Below are positions 9,149 through 33,169 of a DNA stretch of 64,000 nucleotides, one piece after another. A model generated the notes under the pieces. That model ran no database searches and was not told where the DNA came from. It saw only the letters and a program-made list of their open reading frames with translations. The stretch spans positions 1 to 64,000 of the forward strand of contig CAPI01000126.1 of assembly GCA_000333815.1 (NCBI GenBank), read 5' to 3'. The stretch comes from [Collinsella] massiliensis (GTDB lineage Bacteria > Actinomycetota > Coriobacteriia > Coriobacteriales > Coriobacteriaceae). Position numbers and translations under genes: made by a program. Numbering within the stretch: the stretch's first letter is position 1; every line of letters begins with the position of its first letter.

Positions 9149-9207
9149 ATTTACCCCAGGGGTTATTTTACATTCGTTGTAAAAACACCCCTGGGGTTAT
9201 TTGACAT
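9147..9207. repeat. Tandem pair of ATGTAAA-type palindromic repeats
   Basis: Two units lie next to each other: AAATTTACCCCAGGGG followed by TTATTTTACAT, then TGTAAAAACACCCCTGGGG followed by TTATTTGACAT. Each unit is an imperfect palindrome centred on CCCC(A/T)GGGG with ATGTAAA-like ends. The same family occurs at 46854-46955 and 58325-58355. All copies are intergenic or at a gene end. Confidence 0.75.
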
Positions 9208-9224
9208 GGAGCTTTCGTGCGCGC

Positions 9225-9253
9225 TTGACGCCCCGGCCGTCACGCGGCATACT
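9225..9253 (+). promoter_or_regulatory. Promoter of the rplJ-rplL leader
   Basis: TTGACG at 9225-9230 and CATACT at 9248-9253 are separated by exactly 17 bases, close to the sigma-70-type consensus. The predicted transcript starts near 9260 and runs through a leader of about 225 bases before rplJ, as expected for an autoregulated L10 operon. Confidence 0.7.
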
Positions 9254-9260
9254 AGTCGCT

Positions 9261-9420
9261 GGTTCACGCACGAATCCGCTGCCAGAGACAGCCGGTGCCA
9301 CGGGCTCGCCGCAAGACGCGCCCAAGGCTCAATGGGGAAACCCGCCAGCCGAGGTGGTGAGCAGATAGCTCTCATGTCTTCTCGCCCCCGTCGCTCGAAG
9401 CAGCGCGGGGGTTTTCTTTT
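9261..9420 (+). ncRNA. L10 leader, autoregulatory 5' region with attenuator
   Basis: The stretch between promoter and rplJ is GC-rich and folds readily. It ends with a hairpin CCCCCG (9385-9390) and CGGGGG (9406-9411), followed by TTTTCTTTT, an intrinsic terminator inside the leader. Position and layout match the L10 leader RNA, in which the L10-L7/L12 complex binds its own mRNA and limits expression. The terminator suggests control by attenuation. I recognise it by position and structure and did not test it with a covariance model. Confidence 0.7.
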
Positions 9421-9485
9421 CCAAGACATCCCCGCAGGTCTTAAAGCGGGTCGTGCCTGGGAAAAGCAACGAGGAGGTGTACCAG

Positions 9486-10007
9486 ATGCCACAGCAGTAC
9501 AAGATCGACAAGGTTGCCGAGATCGAGTCTCGCATCCAGGAGAGCAACGGCGTGTTCGTCGTTGGCTACAACGGTCTCACCGTGAAGCAGGCGCAGGAGC
9601 TGCGTCACCAGCTTCGCGAGGCCGGCGCCGAGATGAAGGTCTACAAGAACAACCTCACCCGTCTTGCGCTTAAGAACCAGGAGCAGCCGGAGATCGACGA
9701 GATCCTCGTCGGCCCGCTCGCCTACGTGTTCTATTCGCAGGATCCGGTGGAGCCCGCGAAGGCGCTCAAGGAGTTCGCTACGAAGTCCAAGGGCGTCCTC
9801 GAGATCAAGGGCGGTATCTCCGAGGGCAAGGCGGTTTCGGCCGAAGAGGTCAACGCTATCGCCGACCTGCCCACGAAGGATCAGCTCCTTGGTCAGATCG
9901 CTGGCCTCATCAACGGCTTCGCCCGCGATATCGCGGTCTGCGTCAACGGCGTTTCGAGCGGTCTCGCCCGTACCGTCCAGCAGATCTCGGAGCAGAAGGC
10001 TGCGTAG
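9486..10007 (+). CDS. rplJ: Large subunit ribosomal protein L10
   Basis: The 173-residue protein starts MPQQYKIDKVAEIESRIQ and contains the L10 core ([21 protein letters not shown]). L10 forms the base of the ribosomal stalk and binds L7/L12 dimers and 23S rRNA. AGGAGGTG precedes the ATG. It is followed by rplL after about 100 bases. The usual upstream genes rplK-rplA are absent, and the ABC exporter lies there instead, so this is a stand-alone stalk operon. Confidence 0.97.
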   Translation: MPQQYKIDKVAEIESRIQESNGVFVVGYNGLTVKQAQELRHQLREAGAEMKVYKNNLTRLALKNQEQPEIDEILVGPLAYVFYSQDPVEPAKALKEFATKSKGVLEIKGGISEGKAVSAEEVNAIADLPTKDQLLGQIAGLINGFARDIAVCVNGVSSGLARTVQQISEQKAA

Positions 10008-17996: not shown

Positions 17997-18623
17997 ATGG
18001 CGCGATGGTACGAATCGGGGGACATCTCAAGCCTGCGTACGATGCCGCCGGAAAAGATCCTCTGCGTCGATGTCGAGACCACCGGGGTCGATCCTTCACA
18101 CGATGAGATCGTGCAGATCGGGGTCATCCGGGGTGACGGGGAGATTCTGGCATCCCAGTACGTACGACCAGAACGCCATACAGACTGGCCCGCAGCACAG
18201 AGGGTCCATGGCATCACCCCGGCTACCGTAGCAGATTGCCCGCCTCTGACGCATTTTGCTCGAAAGCTTCAATCTTATTTTGCGGGCGCGCACCTCGTTG
18301 TCGGATATAACGTCGGCTTCGACCTCGCCTTTCTGCGTGCTGCGGGAATCTTGCACGAGCCTGTCCCCACGTTCGATGTCATGAGGGAGTTCGCTCCCGT
18401 AGCTGGCCGTTGGGATCCGGTTCGACGGAAATACGCGTGGGTCTCCCTCGAATATTGCGCGCGTTATTACAGCTTCCATGGCCGCGCCCACGACGCGCTA
18501 GAAGATGCACGGGCAACGTTGTGGTGCTTTTGGTCAATGCTGGAGCGCGGCGGCGGATCGCCGGTTTCATCTCCTGCCCGCTCATATCTTGACATCGTCG
18601 AGCGGTTTGCGAAGCGGAGGTAG
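17997..18623 (+). CDS. DnaQ-like DEDDh 3'-5' exonuclease linked to cas3
   Basis: The 208-residue protein shows all three exonuclease motifs: CVDVETTGVDP (Exo I, Asp25 and Glu27), GYNVGFDLAFL (Exo II) and HDALEDA (Exo III, His with final Asp), as in DNA polymerase III epsilon and related proteins. It lies four bases before cas3, so it is probably co-transcribed with it. In type I-E systems DnaQ-like exonucleases can trim prespacers before Cas1-Cas2 integration, and some Cas2 proteins carry such a domain. A separate gene fits that job, which is inference here. GGGAGGAGAG precedes the chosen ATG. A start five codons earlier is possible. Confidence 0.88.
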   Translation: MARWYESGDISSLRTMPPEKILCVDVETTGVDPSHDEIVQIGVIRGDGEILASQYVRPERHTDWPAAQRVHGITPATVADCPPLTHFARKLQSYFAGAHLVVGYNVGFDLAFLRAAGILHEPVPTFDVMREFAPVAGRWDPVRRKYAWVSLEYCARYYSFHGRAHDALEDARATLWCFWSMLERGGGSPVSSPARSYLDIVERFAKRR

Positions 18624-18627
18624 CGCG

Positions 18628-21600
18628 ATGTCTTCTTCACGGCAGGGAAAGGAGAAGCCCATGGATGCGGTCGCGAAACTTTCAAGGCAGGCGCGCTCGC
18701 TTTGGGCGAAGGCAGCGCCCGACGAAGAAGAAGCGTGGCTGCCGCTCTTCATACATGCCAGTGACGCCGCGCGTACCATGGTACGGCTGTGGGATGGTTG
18801 GTTGTCGAAGAGCGCCCGGAGCCTCTTTGCGCGTCGGTGCGGCGGTAACGAGGAGCTTGCCCGCAAGTGCCTCGTCTTTCTTGCCGGTGCACATGACATC
18901 GGGAAGGCGACCCCTATCTTCCAGGTGAAACCTTGCGGACGTAGCAATGATGGGGAGCTCCAGAGCCTCTCGTGGAGGCCGGAAAAGGCGGGGCTCTATA
19001 TCGACCCAACCCTTTCATCAGCGCGTCGACCTACCCACCCCATCGCCGGTCAGGTGCTCGTCGACCGTTACCTCGAGACGGTGTTTGCTTGGCCTTTTGA
19101 GCCGGCGGATGCCCTGGGCTCGATTGTGGGGGCGCACCACGGGAACGTGCCTGAGCGACGGCGTGTCGGAGAGGCGTTTGACGATACGCGGGCGATGGGC
19201 AATACTCCCGACGCATTTGGCCAAGCATGGCGTTCCGTCCAGTTCGAACTGCTCAATTACGCTCGCAGCATGGCGCGCGTCACCGAAGCGGATGCTTTAG
19301 CGCTCAAGACGTTTTCATGGGACGCCCCAACGGAGTCGGTGGCATGTGGGCTTGTCATCATGGCGGATTGGATAGCGAGCAACCGGGATCTGTTCCCCCT
19401 CATCCCATCGCTTTCGAGCGGGAGCACGCGGGCTGATGTCCCGGCGACCTGGGATGATGCGGCACTCGAGATGCGCGCCGAGCACGCTTGGCGGACGCTG
19501 GGCCTTTCACCAAGTTGGGTCGGCGAACGGCCGAAGGCGTCTGATGAGTGGTTCCGTACCCGGTTCGGCTTGCCGGATGGTGCGGAGCCGCGTCCCATTC
19601 AGCGAACGGCGATGGAGATTGCCGAGCAGATGGAGGAACCATCTCTTTTGGTGATCGAGGCGCCCATGGGCGAGGGGAAGACCGAGGCGGCGCTTGCTGC
19701 GGCGGAGATCATGGGCGCGCGCTTCGGTTGCGGCGGGGTATGTGTGGCGCTTCCCACCATGGCGACGACGGATGCCATGTTCGGCCGTGTCCATCGTTGG
19801 CTGGAGCACATGCCGACACATGATCCTTCCAGTATTTTCCTTGCGCACGGCAAGGCGCGGCTCAACGAGGAGTATCAGGGAATCGTGCGCTCTTCCCGCA
19901 TGCGCCACATACCGAGCTCCACGGGCTTGACCGCGGAGAACGACCCCGCGGGCGATGGACTCGTCATCGTATCCGATTGGATGCAGGGGCGCAAAAAAGG
20001 CATGCTGGCGAACTTCGTGGTCTGCACCATCGATCAGGTACTCATGGGCGCGCTCGATATGCGGCATCTCGCCATGAGGCACCTCGCGCTGGCGAGCAAG
20101 GTGGTCGTTATTGATGAGTGCCATGCGTATGATAGTTACATGCAGCAATATCTACAGCGCGTCCTCGAGTGGCTCGGCGTATGGGGTTGTCCGGTTATCC
20201 TGCTTTCGGCAACGCTGCCGCCCCATGTGCGCGATGCGCTTGTCGCAGCGTATCGCGATGGTCGTGAAGCGCGGCGGGTGCCGCTCACATCTTCTGCGGA
20301 CGGCGCCAGCCTGCTTGCCTCGTTGCCCCGTGGAGGGCGTTCCCGTGCTGCGCGTGCTCGTGAAAAGCACGTGGCGCCGGCGGCAGTTGCACCATTTGCG
20401 CATGCCGGGGACGATCCCTACCCGCTCCTCACGATCGCATCTGCGTCGCGGGTGGAACAGCGAGCTTGCTCGCCTTCATCCCGGGAAGCAGTGGTGGACG
20501 TCGCACTGTTTTCTGACGGCGTCGACGAGCTCGTCTCGCTGCTTGAACGAGAGCTTAACGATGGCGGCGTGGCGGGCGTTGTGTGCGACACCGTTACCCG
20601 CGCTCAAGCAGTGTACCGAGCCGTGAGGGAGCGCTTTGGGGCGGATGAGACCGTCCTCATCCATGCGCGCTTCATGGACTTCGACCGGATGGAGAACGAG
20701 AACCGCCTCCGTAGCATGCTCGGGCCAGATGCCACACACGCCAACGGTCGGCGTCCCAAGCGCCTGATCGTGGTGGGCACGCAGGTGCTCGAGCAGTCGC
20801 TCGATATCGATTTCGATCTGCTCGTTACCGATATCGCCCCCATCGACCTCCTGTTGCAGCGCCTGGGCAGGGTTCACCGGCATGCCCGCGGTTCCGGGGA
20901 GTGTGACCGGCCCGCTCGCCTGCGGCGCGCGCGGTGTTTCGTTCGCGGCGTTGAGGGCACAGGCGAGGAGGGCCCGTCGTTCGCTACTGGCATCACGCGC
21001 GTATACGATGCCGCCTCCCTCATGGAAACACTGGCGCTGATACACCTGCGCGATCGGGCAGCAGCGGCAGAGATTTCTCTACCGGGCGATATCGCGCAGC
21101 TGGTGCACACGGCCTACTCCCCAAAGGCGGCAGCGATGATTCCCCTGAGCTGGCGACCTCGATACGAGGAGGCGTGCACCCAACGTCAACGCATGATCGA
21201 GGATAAGCAGCGGCGTGCCGAGATGTACCTGTTGCCTTCGGCCAAGCAGCTCATCTGTAACGGCAAGACGCTCACAGGCCTCTTCACTCATGCGATCGAG
21301 GATGGATCCAAGGATCGGCTGAACGAGGATGTCGGGCAGCGCGCGGTTCGTGATACCCAGGAAACCGTCGAGATGCTGCTCGTGCGCCGTGAGGGTGCTG
21401 GCGTGGGCCTGCTTCCGTGGATCGGCGACGAGCGCAGCGGGGTTGCACGTGGCGAGGAGCTGCCCACGATGTACGAGCCCGACTGGCCGCTTGCGTTCGT
21501 GCTGGCACAGTGCGCGGTGCGGCTGCCGCTCTCGCTCTGTCGTCCTCAGCAGCTCGATCAGCTCATCGAAGAGCTGGAAGACGGTTGCGAGCGGTGGGTC

Positions 21601-21750
21601 GCAGCCTGGCAGGAGGTTCCCGTACTCGCGGGTCGCCTGGTATTGGCTCTGGATGAGCGTGATGACGAGCCGGGTGCGTTCGAGGCAACGCTGCTCGATC
21701 AGCGGTTGAGATACACCAGAGAGGAAGGATTATCGACCGCTCACCGATGA
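18628..21750 (+). CDS. cas3: CRISPR-associated helicase/nuclease Cas3 (type I-E)
   Basis: The 1040-residue protein has an N-terminal HD nuclease domain (His43 in FIHASD; AGAHDIGK with His89-Asp90). A superfamily 2 helicase follows: Walker A APMGEGKTEAAL near residue 346, DECH box VVIDECHAYDSY near 494, LLSATLP near 525 and motif VI LLQRLGRVHRH near 743. Cascade recruits Cas3 to the displaced strand of the R-loop, which it nicks and degrades while moving. Length is a little above the usual 880-950. GGAGG lies seven bases before the chosen ATG; an alternative ATG at 18661 also has AAAGGAG. It follows the exonuclease and is separated from cse1 by 209 bp. Confidence 0.96.
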   Translation: MSSSRQGKEKPMDAVAKLSRQARSLWAKAAPDEEEAWLPLFIHASDAARTMVRLWDGWLSKSARSLFARRCGGNEELARKCLVFLAGAHDIGKATPIFQVKPCGRSNDGELQSLSWRPEKAGLYIDPTLSSARRPTHPIAGQVLVDRYLETVFAWPFEPADALGSIVGAHHGNVPERRRVGEAFDDTRAMGNTPDAFGQAWRSVQFELLNYARSMARVTEADALALKTFSWDAPTESVACGLVIMADWIASNRDLFPLIPSLSSGSTRADVPATWDDAALEMRAEHAWRTLGLSPSWVGERPKASDEWFRTRFGLPDGAEPRPIQRTAMEIAEQMEEPSLLVIEAPMGEGKTEAALAAAEIMGARFGCGGVCVALPTMATTDAMFGRVHRWLEHMPTHDPSSIFLAHGKARLNEEYQGIVRSSRMRHIPSSTGLTAENDPAGDGLVIVSDWMQGRKKGMLANFVVCTIDQVLMGALDMRHLAMRHLALASKVVVIDECHAYDSYMQQYLQRVLEWLGVWGCPVILLSATLPPHVRDALVAAYRDGREARRVPLTSSADGASLLASLPRGGRSRAARAREKHVAPAAVAPFAHAGDDPYPLLTIASASRVEQRACSPSSREAVVDVALFSDGVDELVSLLERELNDGGVAGVVCDTVTRAQAVYRAVRERFGADETVLIHARFMDFDRMENENRLRSMLGPDATHANGRRPKRLIVVGTQVLEQSLDIDFDLLVTDIAPIDLLLQRLGRVHRHARGSGECDRPARLRRARCFVRGVEGTGEEGPSFATGITRVYDAASLMETLALIHLRDRAAAAEISLPGDIAQLVHTAYSPKAAAMIPLSWRPRYEEACTQRQRMIEDKQRRAEMYLLPSAKQLICNGKTLTGLFTHAIEDGSKDRLNEDVGQRAVRDTQETVEMLLVRREGAGVGLLPWIGDERSGVARGEELPTMYEPDWPLAFVLAQCAVRLPLSLCRPQQLDQLIEELEDGCERWVAAWQEVPVLAGRLVLALDERDDEPGAFEATLLDQRLRYTREEGLSTAHR

Positions 21751-21764
21751 TTTATCTATTTCTC

Positions 21765-21792
21765 TTTTCAGTTTAAAAAATCGTTCTATTCT
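21765..21792 (+). promoter_or_regulatory. Possible promoter of the Cascade operon
   Basis: TTTTCA and TATTCT lie 16 bases apart in an AT-rich stretch that contrasts with its surroundings, and the palindrome ATTCTAGAAT overlaps the -10. If real, it gives a transcript with a leader of about 160 bases before cse1, which would contain the repeat-like hairpin. Confidence 0.35.
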
Positions 21793-21894
21793 AGAATCGC
21801 ACCGCGGATGCAATTTCAGTTCATCACGGAATTGCCCCGCAGGCGTGTGTTCGCCATCCGGCGAGTTGGACCTTGAAAGGAGAAGATCTCAAGG

Positions 21895-21922
21895 CTGTTC
21901 CCCACGTATGTGGGGGTTTCGA
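21895..21922 (+). ncRNA. Lone CRISPR-repeat-like hairpin in the cse1 leader
   Basis: CTGTTCCCCACG... TGGGGGTTTCGA aligns over 28 bases with the array repeat, with 15 identities including both CCCC and GGGG blocks. The stem CCCCAC/GTGGGG has six pairs and a four-base loop exactly like CCCCGC/GCGGGG of the array; the one changed pair (G-C to A-T) is compensatory. It lies 38 bases before the cse1 start. It could be a Cas6e cleavage site in the cas mRNA or part of a Cas-regulating RNA. A plain hairpin or weak terminator is possible, though only three T residues follow the stem. Confidence 0.6.
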
Positions 21923-21959
21923 AACATGAAGCTATGGTCAGTATGGAAAGGAGGAACGA

Positions 21960-23591
21960 ATGGATCAGATAACTACGAAGTACGACCTACGAACCGAGCC
22001 ATGGATTCCCGTCGAACGCATAGACGGTACCCAGGCGACCGTATCGATACGAAACGCCCTGTGCGAAGCGCATCGCATCCGGCGTATCTCGGGAGAGATC
22101 CCGGGGGAGAACATAGCGCTTCTCCGTCTGCTGCTCGCGCTCGTCTACTGCATCTACGAGATTCCTGAACACATGGGGGAGGAAGAGAAGCGGCGCATCT
22201 GGCGAGAGTTGTGGGAGGGCGGCGCGTTTCCGGCAGATCGCATAGATGGGTACCTCGTCGACTTTCCCCATGAGTTCGACCTGTTCGATGACGAGCATCC
22301 GTTCTACCAGGTTCCCCACCTTGTCTATATGGGTGGCAAAAAGGAATGCGACCCCGTGAGCGAATGCATGATCGATGTTCCCAAGCCGGAGAAGTTCCTA
22401 TTCTCCATGCGGAGCGCCGAGCACCTCGATGCCCTTCCGTTTGATCTTGCGGCGCGGTATCTCGTGGTGGCTCAGGCGCTCGATAAAGCAGGGATCAAGA
22501 CACCTGTCGAGGGCAATACGTCGGCCAAGAGCGGCAAGGCCTATGCCCCCAAGGGCGCTTTGGGCACGGGCTGGTGCGGTGCGTTGGGCGGCGTCTACCT
22601 AGAGGGAAAAAGCCTTTTCGAAACGCTTGTGCTTAACTGGGTGCTGTTTCTGAGCAACGTGTCCGTCACTGCGAGCGATGACTTCGCTCCCTGGGAGCGT
22701 GAGGTTCCGTCACCCGATACATGCCAACGCGAGCCGACCGGCCCCATCGACCTGCTTACCTGGCAGAGTCGCAGAATCCGTCTCGTGCCAGACGAGAGCG
22801 GGGCATTCGTTCGCGGCGTCATCATCAGCTACGGTGACGTGCTGGTTCCCGCGAACAAGCAGCGCTTCGAGATGATGACGGGCTGGCGGGAAAGCAAGCA
22901 GCAGCAGAAAAAACTCGGTACGGCAACCGTTCCGCTCATGCCTGCTGCCCTCGATACCGCTCGCGCGCTGTGGCGCAACCTGCCGAGCTTGTTGGCGGTT
23001 GCGGAGGAGGAGCGACTACGCCCCGGGGTCATCCGCTGGATGGGGGAGGTGCAGGACGTTCAACATGCGGATGATTGGCGGTTCAAGCTCCGCATCGTGT
23101 GCCAGGGGGTCAAATACGGCACGCAAAGCAGCGTCGTCGACGACGCCATGACCGATACGGTCGACCTGCGCGCGACGCTCATGCGCAAGGATTCCGAGGC
23201 ATTGACCAACATGCTCGAGTTGATTCGTCAGACCGACATCGCCGTCGGCGCCTTCGTGAAATTTGCCCAGAACATCGAACGCACCCAGGGCGACAGGCGT
23301 CGTTACGAGACGTTCTCAGACGCCGCCGCCCAGGCAACCAAAGACGATATGAGGGAACGCGCCTACGACGCTTTGGACGCGTTGTACCGTCGACGCATCG
23401 CGGATTTCCCCGATCGCGATGTCGCGGCATATTGCGAGGCGTGGCGCGCAGAGGCACGCGGGATTCTGAGAAAACTTGCTCAGGCATACGTTTCCCGCCG
23501 TCATATCTCGTACTTTGCAGAGCGCGATGAGGTGTCTGCAGGCAGGGCACTGATGTGGTTCGAGCGCGACCTTGCGCAGGCACTTGCATGA
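21960..23591 (+). CDS. casA: Cascade large subunit Cse1 (CasA, Cas8e)
   Basis: The 543-residue protein opens with the family start YDLRTEPWIPVERIDG and has the Cse1 regions LLRLLLALVYCIYE, DLFDDEHPFYQVP and GALGTGWCGALGG. Cse1 recognises the PAM in target DNA, holds the Cascade complex on it and recruits Cas3. Length is in the normal range of about 500-560. AAAGGAGG lies seven bases before the ATG. It is the first gene of a six- or seven-gene run in which all gaps are short or negative. Its long upstream region carries the repeat-like hairpin. Confidence 0.95.
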   Translation: MDQITTKYDLRTEPWIPVERIDGTQATVSIRNALCEAHRIRRISGEIPGENIALLRLLLALVYCIYEIPEHMGEEEKRRIWRELWEGGAFPADRIDGYLVDFPHEFDLFDDEHPFYQVPHLVYMGGKKECDPVSECMIDVPKPEKFLFSMRSAEHLDALPFDLAARYLVVAQALDKAGIKTPVEGNTSAKSGKAYAPKGALGTGWCGALGGVYLEGKSLFETLVLNWVLFLSNVSVTASDDFAPWEREVPSPDTCQREPTGPIDLLTWQSRRIRLVPDESGAFVRGVIISYGDVLVPANKQRFEMMTGWRESKQQQKKLGTATVPLMPAALDTARALWRNLPSLLAVAEEERLRPGVIRWMGEVQDVQHADDWRFKLRIVCQGVKYGTQSSVVDDAMTDTVDLRATLMRKDSEALTNMLELIRQTDIAVGAFVKFAQNIERTQGDRRRYETFSDAAAQATKDDMRERAYDALDALYRRRIADFPDRDVAAYCEAWRAEARGILRKLAQAYVSRRHISYFAERDEVSAGRALMWFERDLAQALA

Positions 23592-26158: not shown

Positions 26159-26860
26159 ATGTACCTATCACGAGTTACCTTGAGCCTATCGCGCGTTGAT
26201 GCCATCGCGTTCGCAAGCTCGCCGTATCGGATTCACGCCGCGGTCGAGCAGGCCTTTCCGCCCCAAGCTGCGCGGACGACGGATCGAGGAAGGATCCTCT
26301 GGCGCTTGGATGAGGTACCCGGCGCCGTGGACGAGGCGTGGCTCTATGTGCTGAGCCCGGAGCGCCCCGACCTCACGCATATCTGCGAGCAGGCGGGGAT
26401 GCCGGGGAGCCCCTCATGGGTTACCAAGGCGTACGCTCCTGTGCTCGAGCGCATCGCTTCCGGGCAGCTTTGGCAGTTCAGGCTCAAGGCGAATCCGGCG
26501 CGCAAGGTGTTCGTCGATAAGGGGACGCGCGCCCGCGAAGGCGTCGTCGGAACGATCCAGGGACATGTGACCGAGGCTCAGCAGCGATCCTGGCTGCTTG
26601 ACCGTGCCGAGGCCCATGGGTTCCGCATCGCGCAAACGGAAGAGGGCTTTGATCGGCTTGTCGTGTCGCACCGGAAGCGCGAGGTGTTCAAGCGGAAGGA
26701 AGGCGTGGTCACGCTTACGACCGCCCAGTTCGATGGCGTGCTCGAGGTGACCGACGCCGAGGCGTTCCGGCATGTGCTCGGGTTCGGCCTGGGGCGTGCG
26801 CGCGGCTTCGGGTGCGGTCTCATGACGATCGCGCCCGCGGGGGAATCCTGCCATGCATGA
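26159..26860 (+). CDS. casE: crRNA endoribonuclease Cas6e (CasE)
   Basis: The 233-residue protein starts MYLSRVTLSLSR and has the family pattern YRIHAAVEQAFP near residue 23, the probable catalytic His lying in this stretch, LWQFRLKANPARK and the C-terminal glycine-rich loop GFGLGRARGFGCGLM. Cas6e cuts pre-crRNA at the 3' base of each repeat hairpin and stays bound to the crRNA 3' end. The gene follows cas5 by eight bases and overlaps cas1 by eight. Its RNA target class is the CCCC/GGGG stem, which also occurs once in the cse1 leader. Confidence 0.95.
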   Translation: MYLSRVTLSLSRVDAIAFASSPYRIHAAVEQAFPPQAARTTDRGRILWRLDEVPGAVDEAWLYVLSPERPDLTHICEQAGMPGSPSWVTKAYAPVLERIASGQLWQFRLKANPARKVFVDKGTRAREGVVGTIQGHVTEAQQRSWLLDRAEAHGFRIAQTEEGFDRLVVSHRKREVFKRKEGVVTLTTAQFDGVLEVTDAEAFRHVLGFGLGRARGFGCGLMTIAPAGESCHA

Positions 26861-28281: not shown

Positions 28282-31200
28282 GTGCTCCCCGCACACGCGG
28301 GGATGATCCCGGGCAGGGCTTCAGCTCTTCCATTCCTCCACCGTGCTCCCCGCACACGCGGGGATGATCCCGCCCCGAGCACCTCGGCCGCCTCTTCAAG
28401 CACGTGCTCCCCGCACACGCGGGGATGATCCCGACACGTGGTACGAGACCGGTTTCGACCGTCAGTGCTCCCCGCACACGCGGGGATGATCCCTATTCAC
28501 CGGCGATGACGTTGAACGGCTTATCGTGCTCCCCGCACACGCGGGGATGATCCCGTTGATGCGATCGACCTCGGTGTGCTCGATGGGTGCTCCCCGCACA
28601 CGCGGGGATGATCCCCTGGGGCTCAATCCACCTAATGGGCGCATATCGTGCTCCCCGCACACGCGGGGATGATCCCGAGGATTCGCGCCACCTGCGCCCA
28701 TGGGAGTTGTGCTCCCCGCACACGCGGGGATGATCCCTGCGACGGGAGGGCATGTTGACGGCACGCGAGGTGCTCCCCGCACACGCGGGGATGATCCCAC
28801 GTTCCTCATCCACTCGGGGCGGCCGAGGCCGTGCTCCCCGCACACGCGGGGATGATCCCCGGCGGTTGCCGGTGGTGTCCGTGAGGAACGCGTGCTCCCC
28901 GCACACGCGGGGATGATCCCCTGCCGCCGGGCGTGTCGCCCGAGGACATCGAGTGCTCCCCGCACACGCGGGGATGATCCCGCTCCGGTTCGCCATGTTT
29001 TTACCGTCTGAGCGTGCTCCCCGCACACGCGGGGATGATCCCCTGCGCGAGGTCGATGAGGATGCGAAAGCATGGTGCTCCCCGCACACGCGGGGATGAT
29101 CCCGCCAAGGCCGCGGAGATGCTTGCCTCGACCCGGTGCTCCCCGCACACGCGGGGATGATCCCCCGGAGATGGAGCCGCGCGACCTGCTCGCCAAGTGC
29201 TCCCCGCACACGCGGGGATGATCCCGATCGCGGATGGGACGTCGACGCCATGGCGCAGTGCTCCCCGCACACGCGGGGATGATCCTACCTTGCGACGTTC
29301 GCAAGTGGTGCCATAGCCGTGCTCCCCGCACACGCGGGGATGATCCCCGCGTGGGAGTCCCGAACCCTCCAGCTCGAACGTGCTCCCCGCACACGCGGGG
29401 ATGATCCCCGGCGGCAGTCTGCCAATCCATCGCACCGCCTGTGCTCCCCGCACACGCGGGGATGATCCCGTAGCCGGCCCGAACGACCACGTCGGCTTCG
29501 TGTGCTCCCCGCACACGCGGGGATGATCCCAACTCCTCGAACCCCTGGACGGTCTACCCCAAGTGCTCCCCGCACACGCGGGGATGATCCCAGGAACAGG
29601 GCGCCGTGGTCGCGCTCCAGCTTGTGCTCCCCGCACACGCGGGGATGATCCTTCGTCAAGCATGGTCTGTCCTTCCTATCCGTCGTGCTCCCCGCACACG
29701 CGGGGATGATCCCCAGCCGGGAACCCCAAACCATCGACCTCGAACGTGCTCCCCGCACACGCGGGGATGATCCCTCCCTATGGATGTCCTGCAGCCTGTA
29801 CATGAGGTGCTCCCCGCACACGCGGGGATGATCCCTGCAAGCACAACGGCGTGCGCGTCTACGGCTAGTGCTCCCCGCACACGCGGGGATGATCCCGGCC
29901 GTCCGCGCCCGTGGTGTTGAACTCGATGGTGCTCCCCGCACACGCGGGGATGATCCCCACGCGGGCGACGAACGACTCGCCCACGCCGAGTGCTCCCCGC
30001 ACACGCGGGGATGATCCCTACGAGTATCACGAGGGTGTAGTCGCAAAGTCGTGCTCCCCGCACACGCGGGGATGATCCCTACGAGTATCACGAGGGTGTA
30101 GTCGCAAAGTCGTGCTCCCCGCACACGCGGGGATGATCCCATCCTAGGACTCATCTCCGGTGGTGCCACCCTGTGCTCCCCGCACACGCGGGGATGATCC
30201 CAGCCCCGGGCTCGCGCCCATCATCTCCGCCTTGTGCTCCCCGCACACGCGGGGATGATCCCTCACCCACGAGCGCCCCGACAGTTGGGAGCGCGTGCTC
30301 CCCGCACACGCGGGGATGATCCGAGGAGGAGTACTACGACAAGAAGGAGGGCGCGGTGCTCCCCGCACACGCGGGGATGATCCCCTTCTTGACGAGCGTG
30401 AAAGCCTGGGCAAGAGTGCTCCCCGCACACGCGGGGATGATCCAGCGCATCGCCGAGATCTCGCCGACCTTCGGGAGTGCTCCCCGCACACGCGGGGATG
30501 ATCCCCTTCTTGACGAGCGTGAAAGCCTGGGCAAGAGGTGCTCCCCGCACACGCGGGGATGATCCCCGATCGCGCGACCTCCTCGTATCTGCTCGCTCGT
30601 GCTCCCCGCACACGCGGGGATGATCCCCTAATCCTCGGCGGAAACTGGCCGCTCGGTGAGTGCTCCCCGCACACGCGGGGATGATCCCACCATCACGCGA
30701 AAACTGCGCGAATACCACGCGTGCTCCCCGCACACGCGGGGATGATCCCAGCGCGCCCTCCTCCGGGATGTGCCGGAGCTCGTGCTCCCCGCACACGCGG
30801 GGATGATCCTCCCAGACGGGTATGCGCGATATGGGGCGCAAGGTGCTCCCCGCACACGCGGGGATGATCCCTTCACGCCGACCTCGACCTTGCCGTGCCT
30901 CCAGTGCTCCCCGCACACGCGGGGATGATCCCATGAAGGCACGTGTCATCGACGAGCGCGACGCGTGCTCCCCGCACACGCGGGGATGATCCTACACGAC
31001 CGCCGCGCGTCGTGATGCGTATATTGTGCTCCCCGCACACGCGGGGATGATCCCAGCGAAATGGAGTTGAAAGATTACTACCGTAAGTGCTCCCCGCACA
31101 CGCGGGGATGATCCTTAACGCGGGCGATGAAAATGGCCAATAAGGAGGTGCTCCCCGCACACGCGGGGATGATCCCCATAAGCAGTCGGTCGCATGCAGT

Positions 31201-33169
31201 TCGCAGACGTGCTCCCCGCACACGCGGGGATGATCCCCATGCCAGGAAGAATTCATGCCCTCCGATATAGTGCTCCCCGCACACGCGGGGATGATCCCGG
31301 TCACCGGAATCGAACGCATGGATCCGGAAAGTGCTCCCCGCACACGCGGGGATGATCCCGAGCAATCGCATTTGATTCCAGATAAAGCCGAGTGCTCCCC
31401 GCACACGCGGGGATGATCCCTACCAGGCGTTCTCGGCCGAGGCCATCATGGCGTGCTCCCCGCGCACGCGGGGATGATCCCACGTAGGGCAACGCGTTAA
31501 ATCGCTGCTAGATGTGCTCCCCGCGCACGCGGGGATGATCCCGCTCCCACGTCTCGCCGCCGTCCTCGCTCACCGTGCTCCCCGCGCACGCGGGGATGAT
31601 CCCAGCCCCTGCCGCTCCTCGTTCTCGATGTACTCGTGCTCCCCGCGCACGCGGGGATGATCCCAGGGGTGCTCCGCGATACGAGTGCTTCGTCGAGTGC
31701 TCCCCGCGCACGCGGGGATGATCCCTACATGCCCGGCTTCTGCGCATGGATGGCCGGGTGCTCCCCGCGCACGCGGGGATGATCCCACACCTCTAACGAC
31801 CGAGACATGCCGAACGAGGTGCTCCCCGCGCACGCGGGGATGATCCCTCAGCCGCCCTCACGTCGCCGCCGACGGCCTTGTGCTCCCCGCGCACGCGGGG
31901 ATGATCCCGGCAGCACGACAGCCTGAAGCGCGCGATCATGGTGCTCCCCGCGCACGCGGGGATGATCCCGCCGTGGCGGAGACGATGGGATACGGCTCCT
32001 CGTGCTCCCCGCGCACGCGGGGATGATCCCCGGTTCGACGGCGAGCCCGACTGCTTGAGGGGATGATCCCACGGCGGCGGAGATACGCGCGTACGCGGAG
32101 AGGTGCTCCCCGCGCACGCGGGGATGATCCCAGACCCGGGCTCACCCCCATCGTCTCCGCTTTGTGCTCCCCGCGCACGCGGGGATGATCCCGTGCGGAA
32201 CCGCGGCGGTCGCATCGTGAACACGTGCTCCCCGCGCACGCGGGGATGATCCACGTCTAGGTCGATGGCGAAGACGCCGCCGGACGGGTGCTCCCCGCGC
32301 ACGCGGGGATGATCCCGACGAGGTCGTTTCGCTTCTGCCCCTGCGTCCGTGCTCCCCGCACACGCGGGGATGATCCCGCTTGCGGCGCGGTCGTGACCGG
32401 GAAGACCCGGTGTTCCCCGCGCACGCGGGGATGATCCCTACACCGATAACTCAATCAGCGCAGACTACAGGTGCTCCCCGCACACGCGGGGATGATCCCG
32501 ACGTGCGCACGGCGGCGGTGACGCTCACGCTGTGCTCCCCGCACACGCGGGGATGACCCCGGTACCGACCCCGTGGGGATACGCCGTCGTGCGTGCTTCC
32601 CGCTCACGCGGGGATGATCCCCCGCCGAACCCGAACTACCCGGATGGCGAGCCGTGCTCCCCGCGCACGCGGGGATGATTCCGGGAAGTCAAGCTGGGTA
32701 ATCTCCGGGCTGTCGTGCTCCCCGCGCACGCGGGGATGATCCCATCCGCATGCCGTACCGCGAGTACGCGGCGGAGTGCTCCCCGCGCACGTGGGGATGA
32801 TCCCGCCTTGGCCACGCCGGAGTTCTTGGGGTTGGTGTGCTCCCCGCGTATGCGGGGATGATCCCGTGTTGATCTCCGTCACCTAGATGTAGGAGTCGTG
32901 CTCCCCGCTTATGCGGGGATGATCCTGGCGCGGGGACGCGCATGTACCAGAAGATCATGTGCTCCCCGCGCACGTGGGGATGATCCCACGTTGCAGAAGA
33001 CCTTGCGCTTCGTCTCTTGGTGTTCCCCGCGTATGCGGGGATGATCCGTACGACACCGAGACGGCTGAGGAGGTCGCCGAGTGCTCCCCGCGCATGCGGG
33101 AATGATCCCTTCGACTACGACATTCAGAAGGTGCACGATGAGTGCTCCCCGCGCACGCGAGGATGGTTC
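28282..33169 (+). CRISPR. Type I-E CRISPR array, 81 repeats and 80 spacers
   Basis: The repeat is 28 bases, GTGCTCCCCG then CACACGC then GGGGATGATCC, with period 61 (33-base spacers). I followed every unit: repeats 1-35 at exact 61-base steps from 28282, then 30416, 30477, 30538 and on to 32002. A truncated repeat lies at 32059-32069, and the series continues 32103 to 33142. Exceptions are a 32-base spacer at 30384, the deletion near 32059 and a 35-base spacer at 32253. Repeats 1-52 have A at position 12, repeats 53-67 mostly G, and older ones are mixed with point changes. The last repeat (33142-33169) is degenerate, as at a trailer end. Long open frames rich in HPRVCGEH across this stretch are translations of the repeats, not genes. 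Confidence 0.99.

Follow-up and report, generated by a model that had tools for sequence, protein, structure and literature searches.

A degenerate mini-CRISPR between cas3 and cse1 is predicted to guide type I-E Cascade to its own promoter region

A 209-bp gap separates cas3 from cse1

We analysed a 64,000-nt stretch of [Collinsella] massiliensis DNA (contig CAPI01000126.1, positions 1 to 64,000; hereafter the window) that carries a type I-E CRISPR-Cas locus. On its plus strand, cas3 (18505–21750; Pfam Cas3 domains) forms the upstream border of a 209-bp gap (21751–21959), which ends at cse1 (casA/cas8e; 21960–23591; PF09481, E = 1.1e-91), the first gene of the operon that we predict to be repressed. 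The ribosome-binding site of cse1, AAAGGAGG, is a Shine-Dalgarno match (21947–21954, plus strand). Further along the same strand follow cas6e (26159–26860; PF08798, E = 1e-59), encoding the predicted processing nuclease, and the main CRISPR array (28282–33108), which comprises 79 repeats of GTGCTCCCCGCACACGCGGGGATGATCC and close variants, with base 29 mostly C. Some repeat-spacer units within the array are duplicated (30356–30416 and 30477–30537; 29990–30050 and 30051–30111).

A conserved repeat-like hairpin lies upstream of cse1

The initial annotation had singled out a lone hairpin resembling a CRISPR repeat in this gap, at 21895–21922 on the plus strand, here termed psiR2. Read directly from the window, psiR2 is CTGTT-CCCCAC-GTAT-GTGGGG-GTTTCGA, and a direct count against the array repeat, GTGCT-CCCCGC-ACAC-GCGGGG-ATGATCC, recovers both the 28-base element and the 15 identities (15/28) given for it. 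Its six-pair stem (21900–21905 with 21910–21915), its four-base loop (21906–21909) and the single pair altered relative to the array repeat, a compensatory change from G-C to A-T, were likewise borne out. A genome-wide search with the stem pattern TCCCCRYNNNNRYGGGG returned 80 forward matches, namely the 79 array repeats and 21895–21922, leaving psiR2 as the sole off-array match in the whole genome. To that extent the hairpin is indeed alone; within the gap it is not, as a second, degenerate repeat is present at 21845–21872.

Comparison of cse1 upstream regions revealed the hairpin in nearly every related genome having a cas3-cse1 gap, including relatives whose Cse1 is only about 40–70% identical, and its absence where cas3 runs on into cse1. 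In Coriobacteriia, psiR2 stands 33–71 bases upstream of cse1. The covariation proposed as a check on the stem is found in relatives: among 26 aligned hairpins, 99.4% of stem cells are paired, double changes occur at four stem pairs, and the switch pair is A-U in 16 sequences and G-C in 10, compared with at most 60% pairing in slid registers. The seven bases 3' of the stem (columns 22–28), which form the handle in a true repeat, show no conservation across the aligned relatives. Rfam returned no match within 1 kb around psiR2, and no terminator-like site was found in the psiR2 region.

A second, degenerate repeat delimits a short spacer

Reading upstream of psiR2 across species, we recognised a first repeat, psiR1, at 21845–21872 (plus strand). 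Its sequence, GTGTG-TTCGCC-ATCC-GGCGAG-TTGGACC, has the exact geometry of a repeat, with a flank of five bases (21845–21849), a stem of six pairs (21850–21855 with 21860–21865), a loop of four bases (21856–21859) and a handle of seven (21866–21872; base 29 is 21873). The remnant of a second repeat had previously been sought in a CCCCGCAGGCGTG stretch at about 21834; this sequence is present in the window but missing from relatives, and the element at 21845–21872 is the actual first repeat. Both hairpins appear in the predicted fold, whether the whole leader or each element alone is folded.

The first repeat is more decayed than the second, and in several other loci its stem is weak, shorter or shifted. 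Double changes are seen at all six psiR1 pairs among 12 loci of fixed geometry, for which the pairing percentage is inflated because these loci were picked for fitting geometry. The psiR1 handle reads TTGGACC in the window, and the form TGnnCC is common to psiR1 across loci. With the handle retained in psiR1 and the stem in psiR2, both parts needed by a mature guide RNA are therefore kept. The roles look reversed in Collinsella sp. BA40 (L033, about 9870–9945), where psiR1 is well kept with an intact ATGATCC handle and psiR2 is degenerate. In the window, an out-of-frame 107-codon reading frame (21845–22168, plus strand) starts at psiR1, crosses the hairpin and enters cse1; it is without a ribosome-binding site and probably arose by chance.

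Between the two repeats lies a 22-nt spacer (21873–21894, plus strand), whose guide proper starts at 21874 and reads TGAAAGGAGAAGATCTCAAGG. Nearly all loci have spacers of 21–22 nt (20–21 nt if the repeat is taken as 29 nt), and two Collinsella loci (L018 and L022, the latter Collinsella tanakaei) have full-length spacers of 33–34 nt, with a target match that is still seed-only. Type I-E Cas6e cuts at the base of the repeat stem. Such cutting would yield a mature, crRNA-like RNA of 50 nt (21866–21915, plus strand) composed of an 8-nt handle, a 21-nt guide and a 21-nt 3' stem-loop piece. Cleavage after 21915 in psiR2 stays a predicted step, since this cut would form the 3' end of the guide RNA. 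The unit is present in at least 29 related species or loci of Coriobacteriia and Bifidobacterium; at locus L008, which has a cas3-cse1 gap, none was found.

The guide matches a PAM-flanked site in its own gap

We compared each guide, from repeat position 30 onward, with the rest of its gap on both strands and without imposing a PAM. Ten seed positions (1–5 and 7–11) were scored; positions 6, 12 and 13 were left unscored. The best site of the window guide runs on the minus strand from 21770 downward and agrees at 10/10 scored positions, next to an AAC PAM; TGAAA-x-GAGAA is identical, and mismatches fall at position 6, at position 12 and further on. The target thus delimited, in the promoter-like region of cse1, spans 21760–21773 (minus strand), with the PAM at 21771–21773 and the seed-matched protospacer at 21770–21760; at a full length of 21 nt, the protospacer would extend to 21750. 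Seed plus PAM, AAYTGAAANGAGAA, occurs once in the 2.33-Mb genome, at this target, in a pattern search. In trials with shuffled guides, 0.015% equalled the window score next to an AAN PAM.

In all 29 loci, the guide has a match within its own cas3-cse1 gap, on the minus strand and with an AAC or AAT PAM. In the unconstrained search, 27 of the 29 best sites were of this kind. One apparent exception (L017) has an equal-scoring AAC site; the other, most likely L032, gives 10/10 with AAT on direct scanning. Scanned directly, L020 and L023 also score 10/10 each, with AAC and AAT PAMs, respectively. The mean seed score over the 29 loci, which share kinship and do not count as independent events, is 9.17/10; when guides were permuted among loci 100,000 times, the mean never exceeded 6.45. 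The own guide is the joint best for its own gap in 28/29. Guides and targets change together: the guides of L015 and the window differ at scored positions 4, 7 and 10, and all three differences are matched in the targets.

A CreR-like guide had been entertained in the initial annotation, albeit with the guide downstream of the hairpin. That option was right in kind and misplaced: the guide lies upstream, between the hairpin and psiR1, and neither a conserved handle nor a conserved guide turned up in the downstream bases 21923–21955.

Degenerate repeats flanking a single spacer are what a decayed array would be expected to leave behind. Covariation in the psiR1 and psiR2 stems, the guide-target match in every species and the lack of a terminator-like site argue against a functionless remnant of a dying array, as they do against a chance hairpin or a terminator or attenuator, and we regard readings of this kind as improbable in the extreme.

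Mismatches and PAM follow the rules of Cascade binding

Across the 29 loci, guide positions 1, 2, 4, 5, 7 and 8 are nearly invariant in their match to the target, and mismatches occur at position 6 in 20/29 and at position 12 in 18/29. Because positions 6 and 12 were both unscored, their freedom is what an unconstrained base would show; the informative contrast is position 13, which is kept, with mismatches in 4/29 loci, though it too was unscored. Cascade flips out every sixth base, which positions 6 and 12 fit. For CreA of a haloarchaeon, seed positions 1–5 and 7–11 are experimentally required and 6 and 12 are free (PMC8501985), a rule equal to the cross-species mismatch pattern of the guide in the cas3-cse1 gap.

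We also inspected array repeats for a PAM preference. Base 29 of the type I-E repeat derives from the PAM, and in array repeats it is C in 770 cases, T in 108, G in 45 and A in 6. An array-wide BLAST search of phage records returned few real protospacers, of which two held up: window spacer 28798–28830 agrees at 29/33 bases with the endolysin gene of Eggerthella phage PMBT5, and a Collinsella spacer matches a phage related to PMBT5 at 28/32 bases, each with an AAC PAM. Array base 29 and these two phage protospacers lend independent support to AAC as the probable PAM. Terminase-based phage retrieval yielded only one phage. The phage records MT835722.1, MT838183.1 and JX006077.1 match the type I-E array in several places and are perhaps phage-borne or mis-binned CRISPR arrays.

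The target adjoins promoter-like elements in two layouts

In Coriobacteriia, the target is positioned upstream of the mini-array and often adjoins a -10-like element, which makes the unit part of the leader of its predicted target operon. The window's own cse1 promoter was not clearly recognised by a consensus promoter scan, and the window has no good -10 element at the offset typical of most relatives. We infer a promoter at the window target; in Bifidobacterium, the predicted promoter is clear. There, seven loci (L017, L019, L021, L027, L028, L030 and L036) have the opposite order, with the mini-array upstream of the targeted promoter. Their PAM overlaps a -35 box that resembles TTGACA, and 24 bases on, in 7/7, a -10-like box starts.

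These layouts bear on the reading favoured by the initial annotation, in which the hairpin, without any guide function, serves as an independent site of Cas6e cleavage in the leader of the cse1 mRNA and confers post-transcriptional negative feedback. Such a site would suit an element that is the best conserved of the gap, no longer has its 3' handle and, in Coriobacteriia, stands 33–71 bases ahead of cse1. It would leave unexplained psiR1 and its handle, the fixed spacer length, the PAM and the guide-promoter match in every species. The Bifidobacterium unit precedes the promoter and is not part of the mRNA leader of cse1. With a second repeat and a guide present, mRNA cleavage is the weaker of the two options, and on its own we consider it very unlikely.

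Nor do we give much credence to a CreTA module, in which the guide would repress a small toxin hidden in the gap and so render the cell dependent on Cascade. The mini-array shares the anatomy and seed rule of CreTA, and the type I-E CreTA of Citrobacter rodentium occupies the same cas3-casA gap (PMC12055562). However, apart from cse1 itself, no open frame with a good ribosome-binding site lies between target and cse1, which argues against a protein toxin, and close relatives have merely about 27–34 bases between the target PAM and psiR1, leaving little room for one. A toxic RNA without an open frame in the gap is compatible with the sequence; overall, we judge a CreTA module highly improbable.

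A predicted self-limiting loop

The psiR1-spacer-psiR2 unit is thus, in all likelihood, a CreR-type degenerate two-repeat mini-CRISPR, processed by Cas6e from the operon leader and guiding Cascade to repress its own promoter. As we envisage it from the sequence, the leader with the mini-array would be transcribed from the cse1 promoter, and Cas6e would cut at the base of both stems to release the 50-nt RNA. Cascade would load this RNA, bind the AAC-flanked site in the promoter region via the 11-nt partial match and block transcription; a match confined to the 11-nt seed would be too short to license Cas3. Since guide and Cascade would come from one transcript, the loop would be self-limiting, and diversion of Cascade by array crRNAs or anti-CRISPRs should relax it. 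Spacers no longer than 24 bp are known from a type I-B system to repress without interference (PMC10989794). A bolder version, which we put forward tentatively and consider rather doubtful, holds that a single Cas6e event in the leader both frees the repressing guide and removes the 5' end of the mRNA. Transcriptional and post-transcriptional feedback would then be combined and would read operon output molecule by molecule; tuning would come from the shortened guide, with which Cascade should be smaller and non-cleaving.

Relation to known guide-based regulators

Shmakov (2023) is said to report mini-array units of this kind, as reportedly does the primary CreR paper (Cell Host Microbe 2023), type I-E included. 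In type II systems, tracr-L and scaRNA are natural guides whose partial complementarity lets a Cas effector repress transcription, tracr-L acting on the cas promoter (cited in PMC10651486 and PMC9458426). Those systems employ the single protein Cas9 and a tracrRNA-derived guide, whereas the mini-array is proposed to use Cascade and two degenerate repeats.

CreR mini-arrays have been described for type I and V-A systems (reviewed in PMC12737573, PMC12948488). The unit resembles CreR and crlRNA in being a degenerate mini-CRISPR beside cas genes, with a guide partly complementary to a cas promoter and predicted autorepression by Cascade (PMC12737573, PMC12948488). Two cas-linked, repeat-like elements surround one spacer in the 29 loci; a PAM-flanked partial match of the guide to the cas promoter region is found in 29/29, the window promoter being a presumed one; and no toxin gene is coupled, in that no candidate open frame has a good ribosome-binding site. 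We therefore view it as a well-supported unit of the CreR kind. Set against CreR and crlRNA as described in these reviews, it lies in the mRNA leader of the targeted operon and has a 21–22-nt spacer; this leader-embedded layout and the short guide are its distinctive traits.

CreTA has a psiR1-psiS-psiR2 anatomy with psiR1 more degenerate than psiR2 (PMC9458426), and its modules are known from haloarchaea (type I-B) and from C. rodentium (type I-E), the latter in the cas3-casA gap (PMC12055562). The mini-array shares with CreTA this anatomy, the more degenerate psiR1, the seed rule and the gap used in C. rodentium (PMC9458426, PMC8501985, PMC12055562). It differs from CreTA in that no toxin gene was found and cse1 is what follows the promoter on the downstream side of the target. 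Racr or solitary repeat units are RNA anti-CRISPRs, carried by mobile elements as single repeats and inhibiting Cas proteins; like psiR2, they place a repeat-like hairpin outside an array (PMC10651486). The unit studied here belongs to the host's cas operon and comprises two repeats plus a guide; this second repeat, the guide and the position between cas3 and cse1 rule out a Racr or solitary repeat unit.

Should the proposed function hold, gut Coriobacteriia and Bifidobacterium would have, in their type I-E systems, a built-in guide restraining Cascade. This would account for the conserved cas3-cse1 gap and predict the way in which cas expression would rise in the presence of anti-CRISPRs or many crRNAs. 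The cross-species pattern would then be a natural record of what Cascade needs for binding without destroying: an AAY PAM, bases 1–5 and 7–11, no set base at 6 or 12 and, in many cases, a guide of 20–22 nt. The two layouts, in the leader in Coriobacteriia and upstream of the promoter in Bifidobacterium, permit a direct comparison of whether guide supply from the repressed promoter alters regulation.

In Bifidobacterium catulorum (L020, about 9200–10000), the mini-array and its target (10/10, AAC) are present, yet two small open frames lie between promoter and cse1. One of them encodes a DUF2442 protein, and both are possible cargo genes under control of the guide.
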